From positions 62,001-126,000 of the forward strand of contig JAIQFV010000001.1 of assembly GCA_020073085.1 (NCBI GenBank): 64,000 nucleotides of DNA, given 5' to 3'. The position numbers and the translations under genes were made by a program. This stretch comes from Terriglobia bacterium. Lineage in GTDB: Bacteria; Acidobacteriota; Terriglobia; JAIQFV01. The notes below the pieces were generated by a model. It had not been told where the DNA came from. It made no database searches and was given only the letters and a program-made list of their open reading frames with translations. Below, piece after piece: positions 17,207-34,790 of the stretch (positions within the stretch are counted from its first letter, which is position 1; every line of letters begins with the position of its first letter).

Positions 17207-17276
17207 GCCCAACCACTCATTCGAGCGGACAGCGTCGGCTCTTTTCTCCGTCGCGCCGCTTGACTGCTGGTCGGGG
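17207..17276 (+). other. Degenerate attC-like site
   Basis: Starts with GCCCAAC (R''-type core) followed by CACTCATTCGAGCGGAC; the partner arm CCGCTTGACTGCTGGTCGGG at 17256-17275 pairs imperfectly with it, and the R' core (GTCGGGG) departs from GTTRRRY. It bounds the AT-richer gene 17370-18128 upstream, as a preceding cassette's attC would. Weak by itself; the better-formed partner is at 18123-18214. Confidence 0.35.
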
Positions 17277-17369
17277 TGAGACAGACAAGCATCGCGCCTT
17301 CGGTCGTGGGCAGGCACTGCTGCTCAACTCCGGCATGAGGTGCGATCAGATTCCGTTCGGGGAGATACT

Positions 17370-18128
17370 ATGATAGAGATCCTGGGATTAATTCTGGCTA
17401 TTTTGGCATTAGCGATAGGGGTATTTCATGTGCGCGAAATAGAGAAGGCCGCAAAGGAAGTGAGACTCCAAGGAGAGAAGGCGCGAGACCACACCATTGC
17501 ATTAAAGGAGGTCAAGGAATCCATTTCGACACGGTATATAGGGATGTTTCCAGAGTACTATGCAGAGATTGTTTCTCTTCTCGAACGTGCAAAACAGGAA
17601 ATAATCATTTTTTGTGATTTCCCTAGCTATGGCAGTTTCTCAGATCCTCGCTATTGGCTCCTCTATCGCCAAGCCATCGAGCGAAAGTCTGTGAACGGGG
17701 TCAAAATTGAGCTAACGTGCTTGAATAAGAGTCTTCGATCTGTTTGTCTCGAGGAACAGTTTTTTGAAGGGTGTCATGACTGGAATATCTGGAAACAGAC
17801 GCCTATTAACAAGAATCGGCTCCAGTCACTACTTGATTCACATCGCGGATCGCCGGGTATTGTTGAGTTATCAAAGGAACAGTTCCTAAAAATGCTTGAA
17901 GCTGACGAGCAGCAGGCATTGAATGAAACATTTGCGAATGCAACAATCAGCGCCATTGATAGTAACGCTTCTTTGTACTTCTGGCTTATTGACAAAAATA
18001 GCGCAGTCTTTGCCATCCCAAGTGTAGCTGAAAGAGAATACGGATTTTCTACCATTGACCAAAAGCTCATATCAGCATTCATAGACATGCGCGACCGCTA
18101 TCATCGGGATGCCGCGACGAGCCCCTAA
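17370..18128 (+). CDS. Membrane-anchored cassette protein of unknown function
   Basis: A 252-residue protein with one N-terminal transmembrane helix (MIEILGLILAILALAIGVF), then a charged coiled-coil stretch (about 22-55) and a soluble domain with EIVSLLERAKQEIIIFCDFP. That part resembles the first strand-helix of phospholipase-D-like domains, but no HxK motif is present. Start ATG 17370 follows GGGGAG; an upstream in-frame ATG at 17340 has no ribosome site. Base composition is visibly more AT-rich than its neighbours, and its stop codon lies inside the R'' core of an attC-like site (18123-18214), as in integron gene cassettes. Transfer by an integron is inferred. Confidence 0.7.
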   Translation: MIEILGLILAILALAIGVFHVREIEKAAKEVRLQGEKARDHTIALKEVKESISTRYIGMFPEYYAEIVSLLERAKQEIIIFCDFPSYGSFSDPRYWLLYRQAIERKSVNGVKIELTCLNKSLRSVCLEEQFFEGCHDWNIWKQTPINKNRLQSLLDSHRGSPGIVELSKEQFLKMLEADEQQALNETFANATISAIDSNASLYFWLIDKNSAVFAIPSVAEREYGFSTIDQKLISAFIDMRDRYHRDAATSP

Positions 18129-18214
18129 CAAACCGTTCGACCGGAGGGGGCAAGGCGAGTTTCGTAGCTCCGGCCAGTGCTACGTTGCGCGCCCGGTCAA
18201 CCGGGGCGTTCGGC
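18123..18214 (+). other. attC-like recombination site
   Basis: CCCTAAC core overlapping the TAA stop of the gene before it, then AAACCGTTCGACCGG; the other arm CCGGTCAACCGG ends in GCGTTCGGC at 18214. The arms pair with one unpaired base (CCGGTC[G]AAC against CCGGTC-AAC), the extrahelical-base feature of attC sites. R' is GTTCGGC, one step from GTTRRRY. Length 92 bp. Confidence 0.6.
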
Positions 18215-27568: not shown

Positions 27569-28206
27569 GAGATGTCCTCGGCCGGCGCGCAGCGGTGAAC
27601 ACGGAGGTTGATTGATCGGCCGTCAACCTCCAGTTTTGGACGCGGGATTTCCAATGTACCTTGAACGAGGCCGGACTACCTGCCGGCCAGTCGGAGAGAC
27701 CTCCCTCGTTGAGATCGGCCGCTAAGGTCCGCACTCAGATCCAACACTGCGGCATCAAGTCATCGGAAGTCTGTTCGGACTATTACCGACAAGGATTCTC
27801 TTATGTGTTCAGTCGCATGGACCGGCTCCTTGGGTTCGGCCATGTGCCCGATCCATAGGGATTGAGAGGGAGATATTCGGGTGAGCAACACCTTGTTCCG
27901 CTACTTTCGATCCGGAGGCTCAGAGAAGCGGATATGGTTGAGGTTGTTCAATGAGAAAAAAGAATCCAGTGGAAAGGGTTCGGACAGCAGCCTGGACTAC
28001 CGGGTTGGAGGCGGCGACCTGAGGGGCAAGGCCTTAGGATTGTTACGGCGGCTGTGGCTTTTCGGATTGGCAACGGATTAACTGGAGTGAATGAAGTGCG
28101 GATTGCGGGGATGTATCCATGGGAAGTCCCCAGGAAAATGCCGCCTGGCGAAATTTCGTAGTAAACTGCCACGTTAGAGGCTCCTCGCCGGTAGCTCAGA
28201 TCCCGC
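27569..28206. other. Gene-poor region ending in an original tRNA promoter region
   Basis: No supported gene. The last 60 bp (28147-28206) are similar but not identical to 34518-34576, the sequence upstream of the intact tRNA, including TAAACT and CTCCTCGCCGG and CCCGC. This appears to be the former upstream region of the tRNA before the island entered. Confidence 0.45.
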
Positions 28207-28248
28207 GGGCCCATAGCTCAGTTGGTCAGAGCGGCGGACTCATAATCC
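28207..28248 (+). pseudogene. Truncated tRNA(CAU), 5' half
   Basis: Identical to positions 1-42 of the tRNA at 34577-34650 (acceptor 5' strand, D arm and anticodon arm up to AATCC), then diverges into TTTCAAACACTCC. It cannot form the T arm or 3' acceptor strand, so it is nonfunctional and marks the left island junction. Confidence 0.9.
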
Positions 28249-28261
28249 TTTCAAACACTCC

Positions 28262-28347
28262 TGCACTAGACTGCACGAAAATGTAAGCAACTGAAAAATT
28301 CGCAGATAGGACAGATTGCAGCGTGCACCAGAATGCAAGAAACTGCA
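28262..28347 (+). repeat. Two imperfect 24-bp direct repeats beside the junction
   Basis: Copies at 28262-28285 and 28324-28347 share the pattern TGCACyAGAmTGCAmGAAA and differ at about five of 24 positions; spacing start to start is 62 bp. Their place 14 bp inside the left tRNA junction is where integrase arm-type sites would lie. This reading is an inference. Confidence 0.45.
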
Positions 28348-28439
28348 CCAAAACTGACACCAAACTAGCACCGACAATCCGGGAGAGTGAGGCGAGAATT
28401 CAAGGAACCCCGCGTATCAAAATCATCCACCTTCCATCC

Positions 28440-28511
28440 ACCTAGCGGGAGCGTTGACCAGCGGGGTATGCGCGCGGCGACCAGTCGTCCCCGTTCACCG
28501 CAATGTTAAAC
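28440..28511 (-). other. attC-like site after the channel cassette
   Basis: On the minus strand: GTTTAAC (28505-28511), then ATTGCGGTGAAC, and at the far end GGTCAACGC followed by GCTAGGT (28440-28446). The arms pair with several mismatches. The length of 72 bp and the position about 28 bp after the stop of the channel gene match the other four sites. This is the most degenerate of the array, as is usual for a terminal site. Confidence 0.45.
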
Positions 28512-28539
28512 GGCGCGAGGGCCGACCACGAGTATTCGG

Positions 28540-29250
28540 TCATCCGTCCAACACAAGATTCAGAACGACCACCAAAAACGTATATCCAATCAGAACTTGC
28601 GCAACGACCAACATGCGAATCGCCGTCGCATTCGGCAGGATGTCACCATAGCCTACGGTCGTCTGCGTGATCGCACTGAAGTACAAGAAGTCCAGCAGGC
28701 CCCACGCTTGGCTTGGGTCATCGCCGACCAGTTTGGCCCGTTGATTCCAATAGTCGCGTCTTGCAGTCCAAATAGCCAGCATCTGATCGAGCCAGTTAGT
28801 GAAGTATGACTGCGACAACTCATCGTCCTGAGGTCCTTCGACGTCACAGAGAATGCAGCCGTCTGGGTCTGTAACCGTGAGAGAAAGACGGTCTTGAGAT
28901 TCACCCGACCCGCTGGAGATTGTGTGTGTGTGCGTCTTGACCTGATGGCCGCTTGCAAGGGTTCCAAACCTAGTTGCAAGCGCCCCGGACGTGACGGCGT
29001 CGCGGACGATCTTCATGGCGTCGATCTCGCGATTGTGTACTTTCACAGCGATGTCAGCCCTGTCCAGCACGTTCTTAAGCTGGGCCGCAGCGATGTTAGC
29101 AGCGAACTGAAACCGGTCCTGCCGGGCACGATAAAGCCAGTAGTACCAAAACCCGAAAGCGATGATGACCGCAAGGTACAGCCCGAATGTGGCAACCAAC
29201 AGTTGCCACCTCGGTGAGTCGGCCCAAACGCTGCGAATAAGTTCTATCAT
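28540..29250 (-). CDS. Two-transmembrane potassium-channel-like protein (cassette gene)
   Basis: 236 residues: TM1 about 17-40, a soluble extracytoplasmic-loop insert (about 45-185), pore helix, selectivity filter T197-TVGYGD-203 and TM2 about 213-234. The TVGYGD filter is the K+ channel signature (Ion_trans_2 family). The large loop between TM1 and the pore is unusual for a bacterial two-TM channel and may be a sensor domain. There is no cytoplasmic RCK/TrkA domain. It is the last cassette in the array, followed by an attC-like site at 28440-28511. ATG 29250 lies 27 bp after the preceding attC core. Confidence 0.85.
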   Translation of the reverse strand: MIELIRSVWADSPRWQLLVATFGLYLAVIIAFGFWYYWLYRARQDRFQFAANIAAAQLKNVLDRADIAVKVHNREIDAMKIVRDAVTSGALATRFGTLASGHQVKTHTHTISSGSGESQDRLSLTVTDPDGCILCDVEGPQDDELSQSYFTNWLDQMLAIWTARRDYWNQRAKLVGDDPSQAWGLLDFLYFSAITQTTVGYGDILPNATAIRMLVVAQVLIGYTFLVVVLNLVLDG

Positions 29251-29276
29251 CCGATTTGGCGATAGCCTTCAGCGCC

Positions 29277-29343
29277 ATCTAAAGGTCGCGTTCAGCTGCC
29301 CGCGAGCGCAGCGAAGCGGGTCAGCAACAACGCGTTGTTAGCT
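29277..29343 (-). other. attC-like site after the DUF4062 cassette
   Basis: Minus strand: AGCTAAC (29337-29343, overlapping the TAA stop of the gene before it), AACGCGTTGTTGCTGACCCGC, a GCGCTCGC-type loop, GCGGGCAGCTGAACGCG, then TTTAGAT (29277-29283). The arms pair (CCCGC/GCGGG, CGCG) in the usual attC layout, and R' matches xTTRRRY. Length 67 bp. Confidence 0.7.
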
Positions 29344-30603
29344 GGCTCCCCGCTTATCGATTGACTCCACCATCTGTGCGGCAGTGAATTCGATTCTCTC
29401 CACGACCAGATTGACTTCAAGCTTATGTCGAAGGGGCTCAGAGAGAGTATCCGCGTAGACGGTGGCATGCAGGACCGCCTTGCAGCTGTCCGGCGCACCA
29501 AATAGCACTTCGGGCACGGGGCTCAGTTCCCGCTGAGGCTGCAATGCAGGGATCTCAATGTGAGTGCGGGCGGTCTTGCCAACGAGAGCTAGGAGGTCGC
29601 TGGGTGACGACATTGGGGGGGCCCCATATCCGTAGAGAGCCGGAGAGATTATCATCGCTGGGAATGCAGTTCCGACGCGATCCTTAGGGACCAGAATAAT
29701 GTCCATGTCTGACATCAGGGCAACATCGATATAGACGTCACGGGCGCCAATGCTCCCAGCGTTCTTGAGCCAAAACCTGAGCGGGCTAAGGAGAAAGTGC
29801 TGAGCGTAGTAAGTTGTTACTTGGCGGTAGTAGTCCTTGTTGACAATGTCCGTGAAGAGGGACACGCTGAAAGGGGAAGTGGTGCCCGCGGACGGCGGCG
29901 CGATGCCTTCGGCGGCTGCCTTCTTCCCGGTGTAGTCGGGCAAATTCTCGAAGTCCTTCACGACCATTAGCTTAGTCTGGAGATTTAGAATCGATTCACA
30001 GGGCTCGCCCGTCTTTGGGTCTGCAAATAGCAGCTGGATGTCGGCCCCCAACTTGGTTGGCGCGCCCCGTGTCTCCGGTGATTCGCCCTCTTGGGCGAGG
30101 AGCATCCGCAATTGGATCTCGATCTGACGGGCAAGCTTGTCGCGGAACTCTACCTGTGATTTGAATGATTCGATGAGAGCCTTCGGATAGGTCCTCTTCT
30201 TGAACTCGCGCAGCTTGGTGATCTGGTCCAAGTCGATCTGTTCTGGATCTTGCTTTACCTGGGAAAAGTAGAGCATGATCGGCTTGCCCTGGGAGGCGAC
30301 CCGGTCGATCTCCTCCAGCGTGCCGCTATCCGCCATCCCTGTGGGGCTTCCGACGCGCGTCCAGAAGATCCCAATCAAAAGGTCGCATGAGTCCACAATT
30401 TGTCGGTTCAGCGCGTCCTGTGGCCGGGTGCCGAACTCGGGCGCCGAGTGAGTTTCCCAACGCAGCGGGAGCAAAACAATCTCCCTCTCGGCGGATTGGA
30501 GGTCGTTCCATTCCTGGATTACGCGCACGGCAACTTCGCGCTCTTCGACTACATCGCTTGGCGACGCTATGAGAATCCTGAAGACCCGGGCCGCGTAGGA
30601 CAT
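29338..30603 (-). CDS. DUF4062 domain protein (cassette gene)
   Basis: 421-residue protein with an N-terminal DUF4062 domain (about 4-90): FRILIASPSDVVEEREVAVR, EFGTRPQDALNRQIVDSCD and LLIGIFWTRVGSPTG are its typical blocks. The domain resembles TIR-like alpha/beta folds and is widespread in accessory and cassette genes, often beside defence functions. The C-terminal 250 residues are unassigned. ATG 30603 follows TTGAGGT; an upstream in-frame start at 30660 would extend over the attC core. The stop codon lies in the next attC. A defence role is only a guess. Confidence 0.82.
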   Translation of the reverse strand: MSYAARVFRILIASPSDVVEEREVAVRVIQEWNDLQSAEREIVLLPLRWETHSAPEFGTRPQDALNRQIVDSCDLLIGIFWTRVGSPTGMADSGTLEEIDRVASQGKPIMLYFSQVKQDPEQIDLDQITKLREFKKRTYPKALIESFKSQVEFRDKLARQIEIQLRMLLAQEGESPETRGAPTKLGADIQLLFADPKTGEPCESILNLQTKLMVVKDFENLPDYTGKKAAAEGIAPPSAGTTSPFSVSLFTDIVNKDYYRQVTTYYAQHFLLSPLRFWLKNAGSIGARDVYIDVALMSDMDIILVPKDRVGTAFPAMIISPALYGYGAPPMSSPSDLLALVGKTARTHIEIPALQPQRELSPVPEVLFGAPDSCKAVLHATVYADTLSEPLRHKLEVNLVVERIEFTAAQMVESIDKRGAS

Positions 30604-30618
30604 GTTTACCTCAAGTTC

Positions 30619-30692
30619 AGCTAACGCGTGCGCTTCAGCCGCGGCGCTTCGCGAATGCACTAAGCGCCGCCGGCTGCAAGCGCTGGTTAAAC
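30619..30692 (-). other. attC-like site
   Basis: Minus strand: GTTTAAC (30686-30692, containing the stop of gene 30687-31421), CAGCGCTTGCAGCC, a Cys-less GC-rich loop, GGCTGAAGCGC, then GTTAGCT (30619-30625). GGCTG[C]AAGCGC against GGCTG-AAGCGC gives one unpaired base, the extrahelical-base hallmark. Length 74 bp. Confidence 0.78.
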
Positions 30693-31421
30693 AGCCGACC
30701 CACCGATGACTAGTAGCGCGGCCACAAGTTGTGGCCCCACCTCTCGAACAAAACTAACTTTAGCTTGGCTGACATCTTCCGCGTGGATAGCCGCGGACGA
30801 CACCGCATACACCTCCCGCATTGCGTGGTCGAGGGCCGGCTCAATGACCTCGGCTTGAGTCAGGAGCCTAGACAGCTGAATGCCCCCCATACGGCGTGGT
30901 GGGACCTCAAGCTGACGCTCGCGCGCAAGCCGGCGCAGTTCACGTTCGATGGCGTACCGAACCCCGAACAAGAATGCCACATCGTCGGAGACCTGGAGAT
31001 CTGTTGGGATTGGTGGCGGCTGACGAACTCCGTGAGCGGCCAGCGCTTCCGCGACGGCGGACTTTATCCGAGTCTCAAGTCCCGGCAGCTGAGAATCCGG
31101 GGGAGGAGCTGGAATACTGATTTGAGAACTGAACGTCGTTCTAATATCGACGGCGTTGCGAATTTCCGCGCGAACCGACTGGATATCCGACCTGACATCT
31201 TCCCTGAGTTTTTGAACTTGCTGCTTGAACTTAAAGCCAAGGAACTCCACCTCTTGAAAAACGGGCGCCAGCAGAAGACCCACCCAGACAAGGAACACCA
31301 CGACGTCCGCTGGCCCGGCGTGCCCTGCCGATAGATCCTGGTACCTGGCAACCAAGTAAACAGTGATCGTCGCAGTCACGGCCAGCCACCACACTACCTT
31401 GAACCAGTTTGGCAGTTTCAT
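30687..31421 (-). CDS. Membrane protein with coiled coil and C-terminal helical domain (cassette gene)
   Basis: 244 residues. Two N-terminal transmembrane helices (about 8-27 and 38-58), a coiled coil (FKQQVQKLREDVRSDIQSVR, about 66-90), a Pro-rich linker, and a C-terminal helical domain (about 140-244) whose AAIHAEDVSQAKVSFV resembles the HEPN-like/DUF4145-type AIHG motif. ATG follows AAAGGAAC. The gene is flanked on both sides by attC-like sites and ends inside one. Unknown function; a membrane-tethered sensor or RNase-like HEPN role is speculative. Confidence 0.75.
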   Translation of the reverse strand: MKLPNWFKVVWWLAVTATITVYLVARYQDLSAGHAGPADVVVFLVWVGLLLAPVFQEVEFLGFKFKQQVQKLREDVRSDIQSVRAEIRNAVDIRTTFSSQISIPAPPPDSQLPGLETRIKSAVAEALAAHGVRQPPPIPTDLQVSDDVAFLFGVRYAIERELRRLARERQLEVPPRRMGGIQLSRLLTQAEVIEPALDHAMREVYAVSSAAIHAEDVSQAKVSFVREVGPQLVAALLVIGGSAV

Positions 31422-31444
31422 CTCAGCTAGGTGTTCCTTTGGTT

Positions 31445-31507
31445 GTCTAACGGTCGTGTCGAGCCGCGCCCCGCTTCGAGCTCGCCTTCTCCAACTCTCT
31501 GTTAGAC
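31445..31507 (-). other. attC site with perfect core pair
   Basis: Minus strand: GTCTAAC at 31501-31507 and GTTAGAC at 31445-31451 are exact complements and both fit the R''/R' consensus. Inner arms GAGAAGGCGAGCTCGAAG and CGCGGCTCGACACGACC are less regular. Length 63 bp, between two cassette genes. This is the clearest core pair of the array. Confidence 0.75.
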
Positions 31508-31514
31508 CGCCTGT

Positions 31515-31976
31515 TCACTTCACAAAGATCTGGACGACGATGCCAATTACGGTCGACACCACGACGCCAGCTCCGAAGAGGAGGTAGTCCCGCATCGCGC
31601 TTCGCCTCTCCCCAGGCGCCACGAGCTTGGCAAAATGCTCGGCGACCGCCAACGGGGTCTTCTCAAGAGTCTCTATCCGCTGCTTCAGCTCCCTTTCGCG
31701 ACCTTCCATAGCATTCAGGTCGGTTTCCAGCATCATGACGGCCTCGGCCCTGTCCTTGGACACCTGCGCCATTTCGGCCAAGACACCATCGACTTCACGC
31801 GATGCCTCGGTGAGATTTGCCGTGAGTTGCGCGAGGCGCTCTGAAAAGGTGGCCTGTTGAGTTGGGCGCTTGAGAAGCGCGGGAATGATCTTCCGGAATA
31901 GCTCCGTCGATGCCACGCCACCCGCCGCGAGGCTCGCGGCCGCGGTCAAGATGGAGATCATGACTTCCATGCTCAT
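31515..31976 (-). CDS. Coiled-coil protein with N- and C-terminal membrane segments (cassette gene)
   Basis: 153 residues from ATG 31976 (an upstream GTG at 31985 is an alternative). A hydrophobic N-terminal stretch (VMISILTAAASLAAGGVA), a long heptad-rich coiled coil (about 40-115, with LTANLTEASREVDGVLAEMA) and a C-terminal transmembrane helix (YLLFGAGVVVSTVIGIVVQIF). It resembles small membrane coiled-coil proteins often found in integron arrays; no function known. It starts about 26 bp after the preceding attC core and ends 8 bp before the next. Confidence 0.72.
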   Translation of the reverse strand: MSMEVMISILTAAASLAAGGVASTELFRKIIPALLKRPTQQATFSERLAQLTANLTEASREVDGVLAEMAQVSKDRAEAVMMLETDLNAMEGRERELKQRIETLEKTPLAVAEHFAKLVAPGERRSAMRDYLLFGAGVVVSTVIGIVVQIFVK

Positions 31977-32001
31977 GGTGCACACTCCCGCGGTGTTGTC
32001 G

Positions 32002-32060
32002 GCCTAACACTGCGGATCACGCGCGGCTGTAAGTCGTCGCGTGCATCGGGCTTGCTAGGC
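32002..32060 (-). other. attC-like site after the broken first cassette
   Basis: Minus strand: GCCTAGC (32054-32060, containing the TAG stop of the gene before it), CCCGATGCACGCGACG, short loop, CCGCGCGTGATCCGCAGT, GTTAGGC (32002-32008). Arms pair as CGCGTG[C]ATC against CGCGTG-ATC, again with one unpaired base. R' is the canonical GTTAGGC. Length 59 bp. Confidence 0.8.
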
Positions 32061-32889
32061 CTTCTTCTCTGTCCCAAAATCTTCAAGATACCGCTCGAGT
32101 TCCCTTGGCAACTGCCGTCGGTGCGCGGCAAATGCCATCCACCAATAGGGTACGAGAGCAAGGAGGATGGCAAACCGCGACGCGCCGCGTGGTGTTCCCC
32201 CTATTGTGGTGAGAAATCCGGGGGAAGAGACGACTAAGACCGTCACAATAGTGAAGATGGCGATGGCCGCAGTGAAAATCCACTTGAACTGCTTTCTGGA
32301 CATCTCACCGAGTCCTTCGAAGAACAATAGGCGACTTATGCGATTTGCAAATCCTTCGGTAATCTCCTTGGGTGTGCCGACACCCATCAAGGTGCCTCTC
32401 AGGTCCACCTGTCTTCTTGAGGTTGCTGTATGCAACTACACGGACGGCTCCCCCATGTTGTGAATCAAGAAATCAAAAGGAGAGAGCGACGGACGAGTCA
32501 GACGGCTCACTTACGACAATCATATTCCCCTTATGCGTCTCGCAAAGTAGCTCTGCATCGAGAATCTCGCCTTCCCCAATGAGGATGCGCAACGCGTCGT
32601 TCTCAACAAAATCAATGTTGCGGATCGTCTCATTGCCGCTGTTCCAGAATGCAAGGTGAGTCAAAGTCAAGGTCTTGGTTGCCTTGCCTTCGTAAGTCAC
32701 CTGCAGTTTAGAAATCAATGGCGTGTTGTTTCTGAAAATGGAAACTGATCGATGGGCAAAAGACAGGGTCTTCGTGCGTCTGGTGCGTCGGTAGAAAACC
32801 ACCGCAAGGACAATGCCCAACGCGCCGATTGTGAAACTCGCCACGGAGAACCAACCGCTCTTGGCGACCTCACTGATGAAATGTTCCAC
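32055..32889 (-). pseudogene. Disrupted membrane protein gene (first cassette)
   Basis: Two open frames (32473-32889 and 32055-32435) look like one broken gene. The first codes MEHFISEVAKSGWFSVASFT with one transmembrane helix (about 13-33), then an Ig-like region ending VSEPSDSSVALSF and a TGA at 32473. Reading through gives FLDSQHGGAVRVV, and removing one G near 32434 continues as HTATSRRQVDLRGTLMGVGT into the second frame. That frame ends with two transmembrane helices (about DNA 32280-32120). So one in-frame stop and one frameshift disrupt a protein of about 278 residues. GTTAGGC lies at 32903-32909, 13 bp upstream of ATG 32889, marking the cassette's 5' edge. Confidence 0.68.
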
Positions 32890-33770
32890 TGCTATCCTTT
32901 GGGCCTAACTATTAGGTAACCCCTATTAGACTTGCGAGGGTCAAAAGCAAAATCCGCGATCCGCGCATCCTATTCCGGTTGCAGGTTGTAGTCGCCCGGT
33001 CAAATGACCTAATTGATTTCAATGCATTACAGAAGAAACGGAACAAAACAAAGGTCCTATGAACCCCGTCCACTTGGTGGCCTAATCCGGGGCGGGTCAA
33101 AATGTCCACGCCGGAAAAACGTCCTGCCGCCTCCGTTCCCACACCGGTCCCATTAGCTTCCGCTCCCGGGGTTCCACCTGATCCGACACTGATCCGTGAG
33201 ACTGCAAGAGATTCTTGGGGTGAGGGAAGTTGCCGCATGGGGAATCACTCTCGTTCATAAAGCCAGCCGAACCGGGGGGAAGGGACCGTTCAAACACAAA
33301 GCCAAAACTCAAGGGGATTATACCCCTCGGAGGAGCGACAGACAAGGAGATCAATTGCGCATGCAATAACGCAATCTCAGGGCGCTTCTCTCGCAGGGTG
33401 GAAAATCAGAGCACCTCACCCGGAACACAAAGAGGGTCAGGCCGCGACAATCGCCAAACCCGGCCAGAGACGAACGGGTGGGATTGCTCTCTGCGCCATA
33501 GGTCCAGGATATGTCGATTGTCGCGGCTTGACCCCTCTATTATCTTCTTCTGCCTGTCCTCATTGTCAGATGTTTGTCATCCATGGTTGAGCTCCCGGCA
33601 TAGCAGCCGGATGAACTCCGCGCTGAATTTTTCCCTTGAGTTGGCATGGGCCAGGGTTTAGTGTCTCCTGTGGATACCGGCCCCTCGTCGGCCCCAGCAC
33701 AATGACGGCCGCCTGGCATTTAAGGCTTTCGATTAAACAACCCCCGTTCCCCTGAGGTACAAGAATTATC
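32890..33770. other. Gene-poor interior of the island
   Basis: Nearly 900 bp without a supported gene; open frames such as 33230-33661 show no family-like sequence or ribosome site. GTTAGGC (minus strand, 32903-32909) closes the cassette array, but no matching attC arm or attI-like region is recognisable, and no integron integrase is encoded here. A decayed integrase would most likely have been in this stretch. Confidence 0.45.
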
Positions 33771-34442
33771 ATGACTGCCAGTGAACCGCTGATCCCGAAG
33801 CACGGTGGCTACCGAAAGTTGAAGAGTTTTCAGGTGGCCCAGCTGATTTATGATGTGACGGTCCGTTTTTGCGATCGTTACATCGACAAGCGCAGCCGTA
33901 CCCGCGACCAGATGGTGCAGGCGGCGCGGTCGGGCGTGCAGAACATCGCCGAAGGGAGTCAGGCATCGGGGACCTCGAAGAAGACTGAACTCAAGCTCAC
34001 CAATGTGGCGAGGGCCAGTCTGGAAGAGTTGCGGCTCGACTACGAGGATTTCCTGCGCCAGCGCGGTCTGCCCATCTGGGAGCGCAACGACCCCCGCAGA
34101 CAGGACCTGATCGACCGCCGGTGCGCTACCGCCGACAATATGGCGCAATGGGTGCGGGAAAAGCGCGACAGTGGACCACGTGGACATGGTGGACAAGAAC
34201 ATTCGTCCACTTCGTCCATCAAGTCCACCCCGTCCACTTTCCCCGAACTGGCAGCCAACGCCGCGCTCGTGCTGCTGGCGGTTGCCTGCAGCCTGCTTGA
34301 CCGACAGCTTGCCTCACAAGCGAAAGCGTTCGAAACTGAGGGCGGCTTCACCGAGCGCCTCTATCGCGTCCGCTCGCAAAGGCGCCCCTCGCGACCTTCG
34401 TCCACCCGGTCCACCAAGTCCACGCCGTCCACCGAGGATTGA
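33771..34442 (+). CDS. Four-helix-bundle domain protein with repeat-derived linker
   Basis: 223 residues. The N-terminal part (about 15-130; FQVAQLIYDVTVRFCDRYI, QAARSGVQNIAEGSQA, RASLEELRLDYEDFLRQR) matches the four-helix-bundle suffix proteins related to those encoded in 23S rRNA intervening sequences and often found at mobile or variable loci. Two Ser/Thr/Lys-rich stretches (about 138-160 and 210-223) derive from 9-bp repeats of GTCCACnnn. A second helical segment lies between them. ATG 33771 is 13 bp after TGAGGT. Function of the family is unknown. It lies next to the intact tRNA at the right end of the island. Confidence 0.78.
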   Translation: MTASEPLIPKHGGYRKLKSFQVAQLIYDVTVRFCDRYIDKRSRTRDQMVQAARSGVQNIAEGSQASGTSKKTELKLTNVARASLEELRLDYEDFLRQRGLPIWERNDPRRQDLIDRRCATADNMAQWVREKRDSGPRGHGGQEHSSTSSIKSTPSTFPELAANAALVLLAVACSLLDRQLASQAKAFETEGGFTERLYRVRSQRRPSRPSSTRSTKSTPSTED

Positions 34443-34509
34443 GCAGCCCGAGCGTCACCGGATGGAGGCAATCGAAGATCGAAACACATTGCCTGCTCGC
34501 GTGGAGCGA

Positions 34510-34537
34510 TTCACAACCAGAATTTTCGTGGTAAACT
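34510..34537 (+). promoter_or_regulatory. Likely promoter of the tRNA gene
   Basis: TTCACA (34510-34515) and TAAACT (34532-34537) are separated by 16 bp and lie about 40 bp before the tRNA. TAAACT is also conserved in the diverged copy upstream of the truncated tRNA at 28207. Confidence 0.45.
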
Positions 34538-34576
34538 GTTGCGTCAGCGGCTCCTCGCCGGAAGCCTAAGTCCCGC

Positions 34577-34650
34577 GGGCCCATAGCTCAGTTGGTCAGA
34601 GCGGCGGACTCATAATCCGTTGGTCGTAGGTTCAAGTCCTACTGGGCCCA
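34577..34650 (+). tRNA. tRNA with CAU anticodon, probably tRNA-Ile2
   Basis: A complete 74-nt cloverleaf: acceptor GGGCCCA/TGGGCCC, D arm GCTC/GAGC, anticodon stem GCGGA/TCCGT with loop CTCATAA, T arm GTAGG-TTCAAGT-CCTAC, discriminator A; CCA is not encoded. The ACTCATAATC loop and TTGGTC variable region resemble E. coli tRNA-Ile2 (lysidine-modified, reading AUA); elongator tRNA-Met is the alternative. It serves as the right boundary of the island, with its 5' half duplicated at 28207. Confidence 0.92.
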
Positions 34651-34790
34651 CTACACCCTCATCCGTAATTCGGATCGTGAAAGACCCCGGGTCGCCGAAT
34701 GTCTGCCCGGGGAATGCTGATCCCCGAATCGTCCACCCGATAGCATAACCTTGCCTCGTGCGGTTTCCGATGTCAGGGGCCAGCTTCCCC

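Follow-up and report, generated by a model that had tools for sequence, protein, structure and literature searches.

CALINs, which in the terminology of IntegronFinder are clusters of attC sites without an integron integrase, are degraded integrons according to one proposal (PMC9024848). Three routes towards them have been put forward: insertion at off-target sites, intI loss, and rearrangement (PMC8618304). The attC sites alone cannot discriminate between these three routes. A sub-clade of soil and freshwater integron integrases (IntIs) is encoded by so-called 'inverted' intI genes (PMC8352920). For the Acidobacteria, an attC model is found in PMC8352920, and the phylum is listed in PMC8618304.

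The window analysed here, a stretch of 64,000 nucleotides (C1:62001-126000) from a genome of 5.79 Mb in 68 contigs, holds a genuine integron gene-cassette array (Table 1). As in a CALIN, consecutive attC sites, called by two covariance models, each follow a single gene (cassette 1 has two ORFs), and there is no integrase nearby. Unlike a CALIN, the array keeps a putative attI site and probably the start of intI, and a complete integron with a related attI region lies on another contig, C8. Like a sedentary chromosomal 'inverted' integron, it has its intI remnant, attI and cassettes in the same order and on the same strand as the complete integron of C8. In contrast to such an integron, the window has no integrase body, and its attC sites are heterogeneous, with a mean identity of 57% among themselves compared to 88% among the 12 compared sites of C8. 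The C8 IntI is called 'inverted' here from the orientation of its gene. There is no categorical difference from the integrons of Acidobacteria, the presumed phylum of the host. Integrons occur widely in this phylum: an IntI that exceeds the curated cut-off is encoded in 73 of its 247 sampled genomes, and in none of the listed same-class genomes. Integrons and CALINs are already known, and the attI-bearing scar is what is added. We consider it likely that the array is a degraded chromosomal 'inverted' integron that has kept attI and lost intI.

Table 1 Features of the cassette array, its surroundings and a second attC group in the window. Scores are in bits for the class 1 model and the extended model
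Feature	Coordinates	Strand	Description	Class 1 model	Extended model
attC, second group	17207..17341	+	Degenerate R'	23.2, E 0.0014	22.3, E 0.0024
attC, second group	18123..18214	+	After gene 17340-18128, stop inside R''	21.6, E 0.0036	28.7, E 6.2e-5
Left repeat copy	28150..28251	+	102-nt direct repeat, tRNA-Met(CAT) 5' half		
Claimed fifth site	about 28429..28511	-		No match	9.0, E 5.4
Gene 5	28540..29250	-	Ion_trans_2 potassium-channel-like; Pfam PF07885 E 1.4e-14		
attC4	29277..29343	-		25.5, E 3.8e-4	30.8, E 1.8e-5
Cassette 4	29283..30624	-	ORF 30603-29338, DUF4062-like N-terminus, PADLOC candidate PDC-S60		
attC3	30619..30692	-	Top-scoring site	30.6, E 2e-5	41.7, E 3.5e-8
Cassette 3	30625..31450	-	ORF 31421-30687, 244 aa, no Pfam match		
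attC2	31445..31507	-		22.1, E 0.0027	22.2, E 0.0027
Cassette 2	31451..32007	-	ORF 31985 (or 31976)-31515, coiled-coil protein, C-terminal hydrophobic stretch		
attC1	32002..32060	-		27.2, E 1.5e-4	28.6, E 6.7e-5
Cassette 1	32008..32908	-	Two ORFs that differ in frame, 32889-32473 and 32435-32055; bounds inferred from GTTAGGC crossover points		
Putative attI region	32904..33107	-	Homologous to the C8 post-intI region; ends at GTTAGGC crossover core 32909-32903		
Putative intI promoter and first-codons remnant	33152..33352	-	Integrase body missing; from nhmmer and local alignment		
Right repeat copy	34520..34621	+	102-nt direct repeat, reaching into complete tRNA-Met 34577-34651		

The attC sites were searched with two covariance models. 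The class 1 model was made from 13 attC sites of class 1 integrons on plasmids, contained nothing from the host genome and was run with filters off on the whole window, both strands included. The extended model combined class 1 sites with attC sites from other loci of the host and from a second genome (G133), and the window was excluded from it. With the class 1 model, six matches in the 64 kb scored above 21 bits and the remainder at or below 10 bits, the runner-up outside the six sites (10 bits, E 2.9) being the 31445 site on the opposite strand. In 20-kb control loci of the host genome outside the arrays, the class 1 model gave no matches. The extended model recovered the same six sites with a top score of 41.7 bits. 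A reading made from the sequence alone had claimed five gene/site units in a row and had proposed a comparison with attC models. Four of the five sites lie far above the background in this comparison (22-31 bits versus 10 with the class 1 model). The claim was not confirmed for the fifth, which scored close to the background and is at most a decayed attC.

Several other search methods were tried. At the gathering threshold, Rfam yielded the tRNA alone in the window and nothing at the start of the C8 integron. A home-made attC scanner based on a topology score could not tell true sites from shuffles and was discarded. The same happened to an alignment that combined attC sites of class 1 integrons with those of C8, because their 3' arms did not line up. 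Another home-made Python scanner detected the C8 array and attC3; the attC calls given here come from the covariance models.

attC1 to attC4 are 59-74 nt long. The R''/R' cores GTTTAAC/GTTAGCT, GCCTAGC/GTTAGGC and GTCTAAC/GTTAGAC, which the sequence-only reading had quoted correctly, belong to three of them, and the remaining one has AGCTAAC/TTTAGAT. In all four, the extrahelical-base position, 8-9 nt past R'', is occupied by a G; in attC3, the extrahelical G is in the 5' arm. The R' of attC4 is CTTTAGAT with a C in place of the core G, and this G to C change probably impairs the site. The genes of the array are all on one strand with an attC after each, and the stop codons lie in or near R''. 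In detail, the stop codon ends 6 nt into R'' at attC1, attC3, attC4 and the 18123 site, and 7 nt ahead of R'' at attC2. This layout is typical of integron cassettes. Pairing of R'' with R' and of L'' with L', along with an extrahelical base on one arm, is clear in attC1 and attC3 and partial in attC4, while the inner stem of attC2 is weak and unconvincing. Single-strand folding compared to shuffled sequences gave z values of -2.0 for attC1 and -3.74 for attC3. As attC2, attC4 and the fifth site did not fold clearly better than the shuffles, the claim of an array rests on the covariance-model matches and not on the fold energy.

The two ORFs of cassette 1 are possibly one frameshifted membrane-protein gene. 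Cassette 4 matches the PADLOC candidate-defence family PDC-S60 with its N-terminal part only (E 2e-29). The sequence-only reading had proposed a search for the cassettes in new orders in other genomes, and one gene was found in this way: the DUF4062-like gene of cassette 4 has a homologue in G133 (37% along some 170 aa), which lies within an attC array among different neighbours, namely a GNAT gene and others. This array (G133:C1, L064 13272-17598) comes from another species and has five attC matches, and the integrase of G133 is encoded on a different contig (C9:374660). The homologue of cassette 2 in the genome G238 is 45% identical and has no adjoining attC match, and the one homologue of cassette 3 (39%) is from a Verrucomicrobiota MAG and lacks an attC. 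For cassettes 2 and 3 and gene 5, attC-linked homologues were not found in the sampled genomes.

The complete integron of the host is located on C8. Positions 268980-269924 of this contig encode a full-length, uninterrupted integron integrase (TIGR02249, 462.8 bits at a curated cut-off of 265), and the gene lies upstream of its own array and shares its strand with the cassettes, which is the 'inverted' type. The compared attC sites of C8 are 73-76 nt long. The window attC sites are 62% identical to them on average, and the window array contains no attC of the C8 type. From C8:268878 onwards (L017, L018), we noticed cassettes resembling toxin-antitoxin pairs within this integron, and an IS91-like unit with a tyrosine recombinase and a transposase-like gene is located inside the array (L017 16145-18230).

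Next to the first cassette, the window resembles the C8 integron. The stretch from the C8 intI stop to the first C8 cassette can be aligned with the window array start over about 200 nt, and the alignment ends at the GTTAGG crossover core. Its score of 102 compares to a mean of 27 and a maximum of 59 for 500 shuffles, and nowhere else in the window, whichever strand is taken, is the score as high. With an nhmmer profile from C8 and C3, from which the window had been left out, 33107-32904 was found with an E value of 1.5e-13 in 629.6 kb, and with C8 as single query with 9.6e-8. The region has conserved GGATTAGGC-like repeats and a simple-site-like core, GTCTAAT...GTTAGGC. A BLAST search with the C8 stretch against the whole genome led to C3:199150-199220 (E 4.8e-5), which is upstream of the attC array on C3. 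The attI-like regions of C8, the window and C3 are alignable but strongly diverged from each other. From these alignments, we infer that 33107-32904 is an attI site, now or formerly working; the attI-like copies could also be duplicated upstream DNA with another role.

Upstream of the putative attI, a weaker similarity to the beginning of intI was detected. The promoter and 5' end of the C8 intI (L017:8786-8985), searched with nhmmer against the 629.6 kb, matched 33333-33156 on the minus strand with an E value of 0.0036, the runner-up being 5.1. The local alignment scored 70 and was equalled by none of 500 shuffles (maximum 56), but in a 400-nt scan of the window, an unrelated stretch reached 67. 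A translated search for an intI peptide remnant adjoining the array gave chance-level matches only, the gap available for the remaining intI is about 44 nt, and the attI-like copy on C3 lacks the 5' remnant. Position 33152-33352 is probably a remnant of the intI promoter and start. Promoter, start, attI-like region and cassettes have the same order and strand as in the complete C8 integron. The sequence-only reading had described a CALIN-type array without an encoded integrase. The window indeed has no match to a tyrosine recombinase or an IntI, so this part can be kept. Because the attI-like region and the weaker promoter/start match precede the array, 'integron remnant' describes it better than 'bare CALIN'.

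The array is assignable to the loss of intI because a complete integron with a related attI-like sequence is present in the same genome. The ancestral state would have been promoter, intI, attI and cassettes in this order. The integrase would have recombined attI with the folded bottom strand of attC sites, so that cassettes entered at attI one by one. The body of intI would then have disappeared, with a deletion as the most likely cause, while the promoter and start, attI and four recognisable attC sites remained. Later decay may have changed the core G of attC4 to C, made the fifth attC unrecognisable and split the first cassette gene between two frames. We infer that intI was once present here and was lost by deletion rather than never having been present, with the promoter part as the weakest link. 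The cassettes would be largely immobile today.

Further attC groups or single attC sites were found on C1 (6 kb), C2, C3, C5, C11, C16, C20, C38, C46, C50 and C58, the weakest of them near noise. The array starts on C1 (about 7.6 kb) and C46 have remnants resembling the C-terminus of IntI (41 aa with 51% and 40 aa with 47% identity). Hence, loss of intI beside an array seems, from these remnants, to have happened more than once in the host genome. After the intI remnant, C1 at 7.6 kb and C46 share a second upstream sequence, and the two are mutually alignable over about 390 nt. The array that starts there on C1 (3.7-7.6 kb; L019 3700-7640, minus strand) contains TIR, Mrr-like and HNH-like genes (candidate defence). 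On C46 (L073 9150-10750), the intI tail and the upstream sequence, which closely resemble those at 7.6 kb on C1, are followed by a short attC-like match of 16.8 bits. The comparison made for the window array could be extended to the host's remaining attC groups and to other genomes that have both a complete integron and CALINs. The origin of CALINs would thereby become testable by sequence.

How the array came to its present place is a separate matter, and it is possible, if tentative, that it arrived as cargo of an integrative element at tRNA-Met which later lost its own integrase. This concerns the arrival and is compatible with the loss of intI, which would have taken place before or after it. 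Direct repeats of 102 nt with the 5' half of tRNA-Met lie on both sides of the array, in agreement with the tRNA-bounded island of the sequence-only reading, and short repeated motifs are found beside the left copy. Against a cargo element, the repeats are only 87% identical, it would be unusual for an element to restore the 5' half of a tRNA, and no recombinase or other element gene was seen between the repeats (28251 to 34520). Apart from the array itself, a four-helix-bundle protein at 33771-34442 gave the sole family match in this interval. The right-hand tRNA-Met(CAT) is the complete one.

Two observations concern the sequence between the repeats. At 28252-28430, recurring TGCACCA/TGCACTA-like motifs adjoin the left tRNA fragment and resemble integrase arm sites; there is no integrase gene near them. 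At 33434-33534, there is an imperfect palindrome of 100 bp, parts of which recur on C9, C10, C12 and C13, and it is possibly a small repeat element.

With an intact integrase elsewhere in the genome, the window array might still be in use. The C8 IntI would then keep exchanging cassettes in trans at the attI and attC sites of the window, which we regard as unlikely. The enzyme is full-length and uninterrupted, homologous attI-like regions occur at C8, the window and C3, and a functional IntI is described as able to mobilise CALINs in trans (PMC12444791). However, cassettes with a C8-type attC are missing from the window array, the core of attC4 is mutated, the fifth site and the first gene are decayed, and the attI-like regions have diverged far from each other. 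Just as doubtful is a distributed integron, in which one active C8 IntI would serve the attI-bearing, integrase-less arrays of the window and C3 in trans.

Still less probable is a CALIN in the strict sense, for which the integrase encoded on C8 would have missed its target and put the cassettes into a secondary site of the chromosome that is not an att site. An intact IntI is indeed encoded in the genome, many of its contigs carry attC groups, and off-target insertion is one of the proposed CALIN routes (PMC8618304). However, homology of about 200 nt to the post-intI region of C8, reaching up to the crossover core, is not expected from off-target insertion, and the window attC sites are unlike the C8 set (62% identity to C8 versus 88% within C8). 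Because of the attI homology, we rank off-target insertion behind the loss of intI.

That the locus is no integron but a usual series of genes followed by terminator-like hairpins, to which the shuffle-like folding of attC2, attC4 and the fifth site might point, is highly improbable and is refuted for four sites by the scores of both models, since the sites reach 22-42 bits while other window positions have at most 10 bits, and the strong matches are on the gene strand with the stop codon in R''.

Besides the cassette array, the window contains a second group of attC sites, a pair at 17207-18214 on the plus strand, which flank one gene (17340-18128) and are absent from the sequence-only reading. 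Single attC matches were also noticed near tRNA genes, at L077 9187-9531 (about 200 bp from a tRNA-Gly gene) and L078 9346-10496 (about 1 kb from a tRNA-Asn gene).
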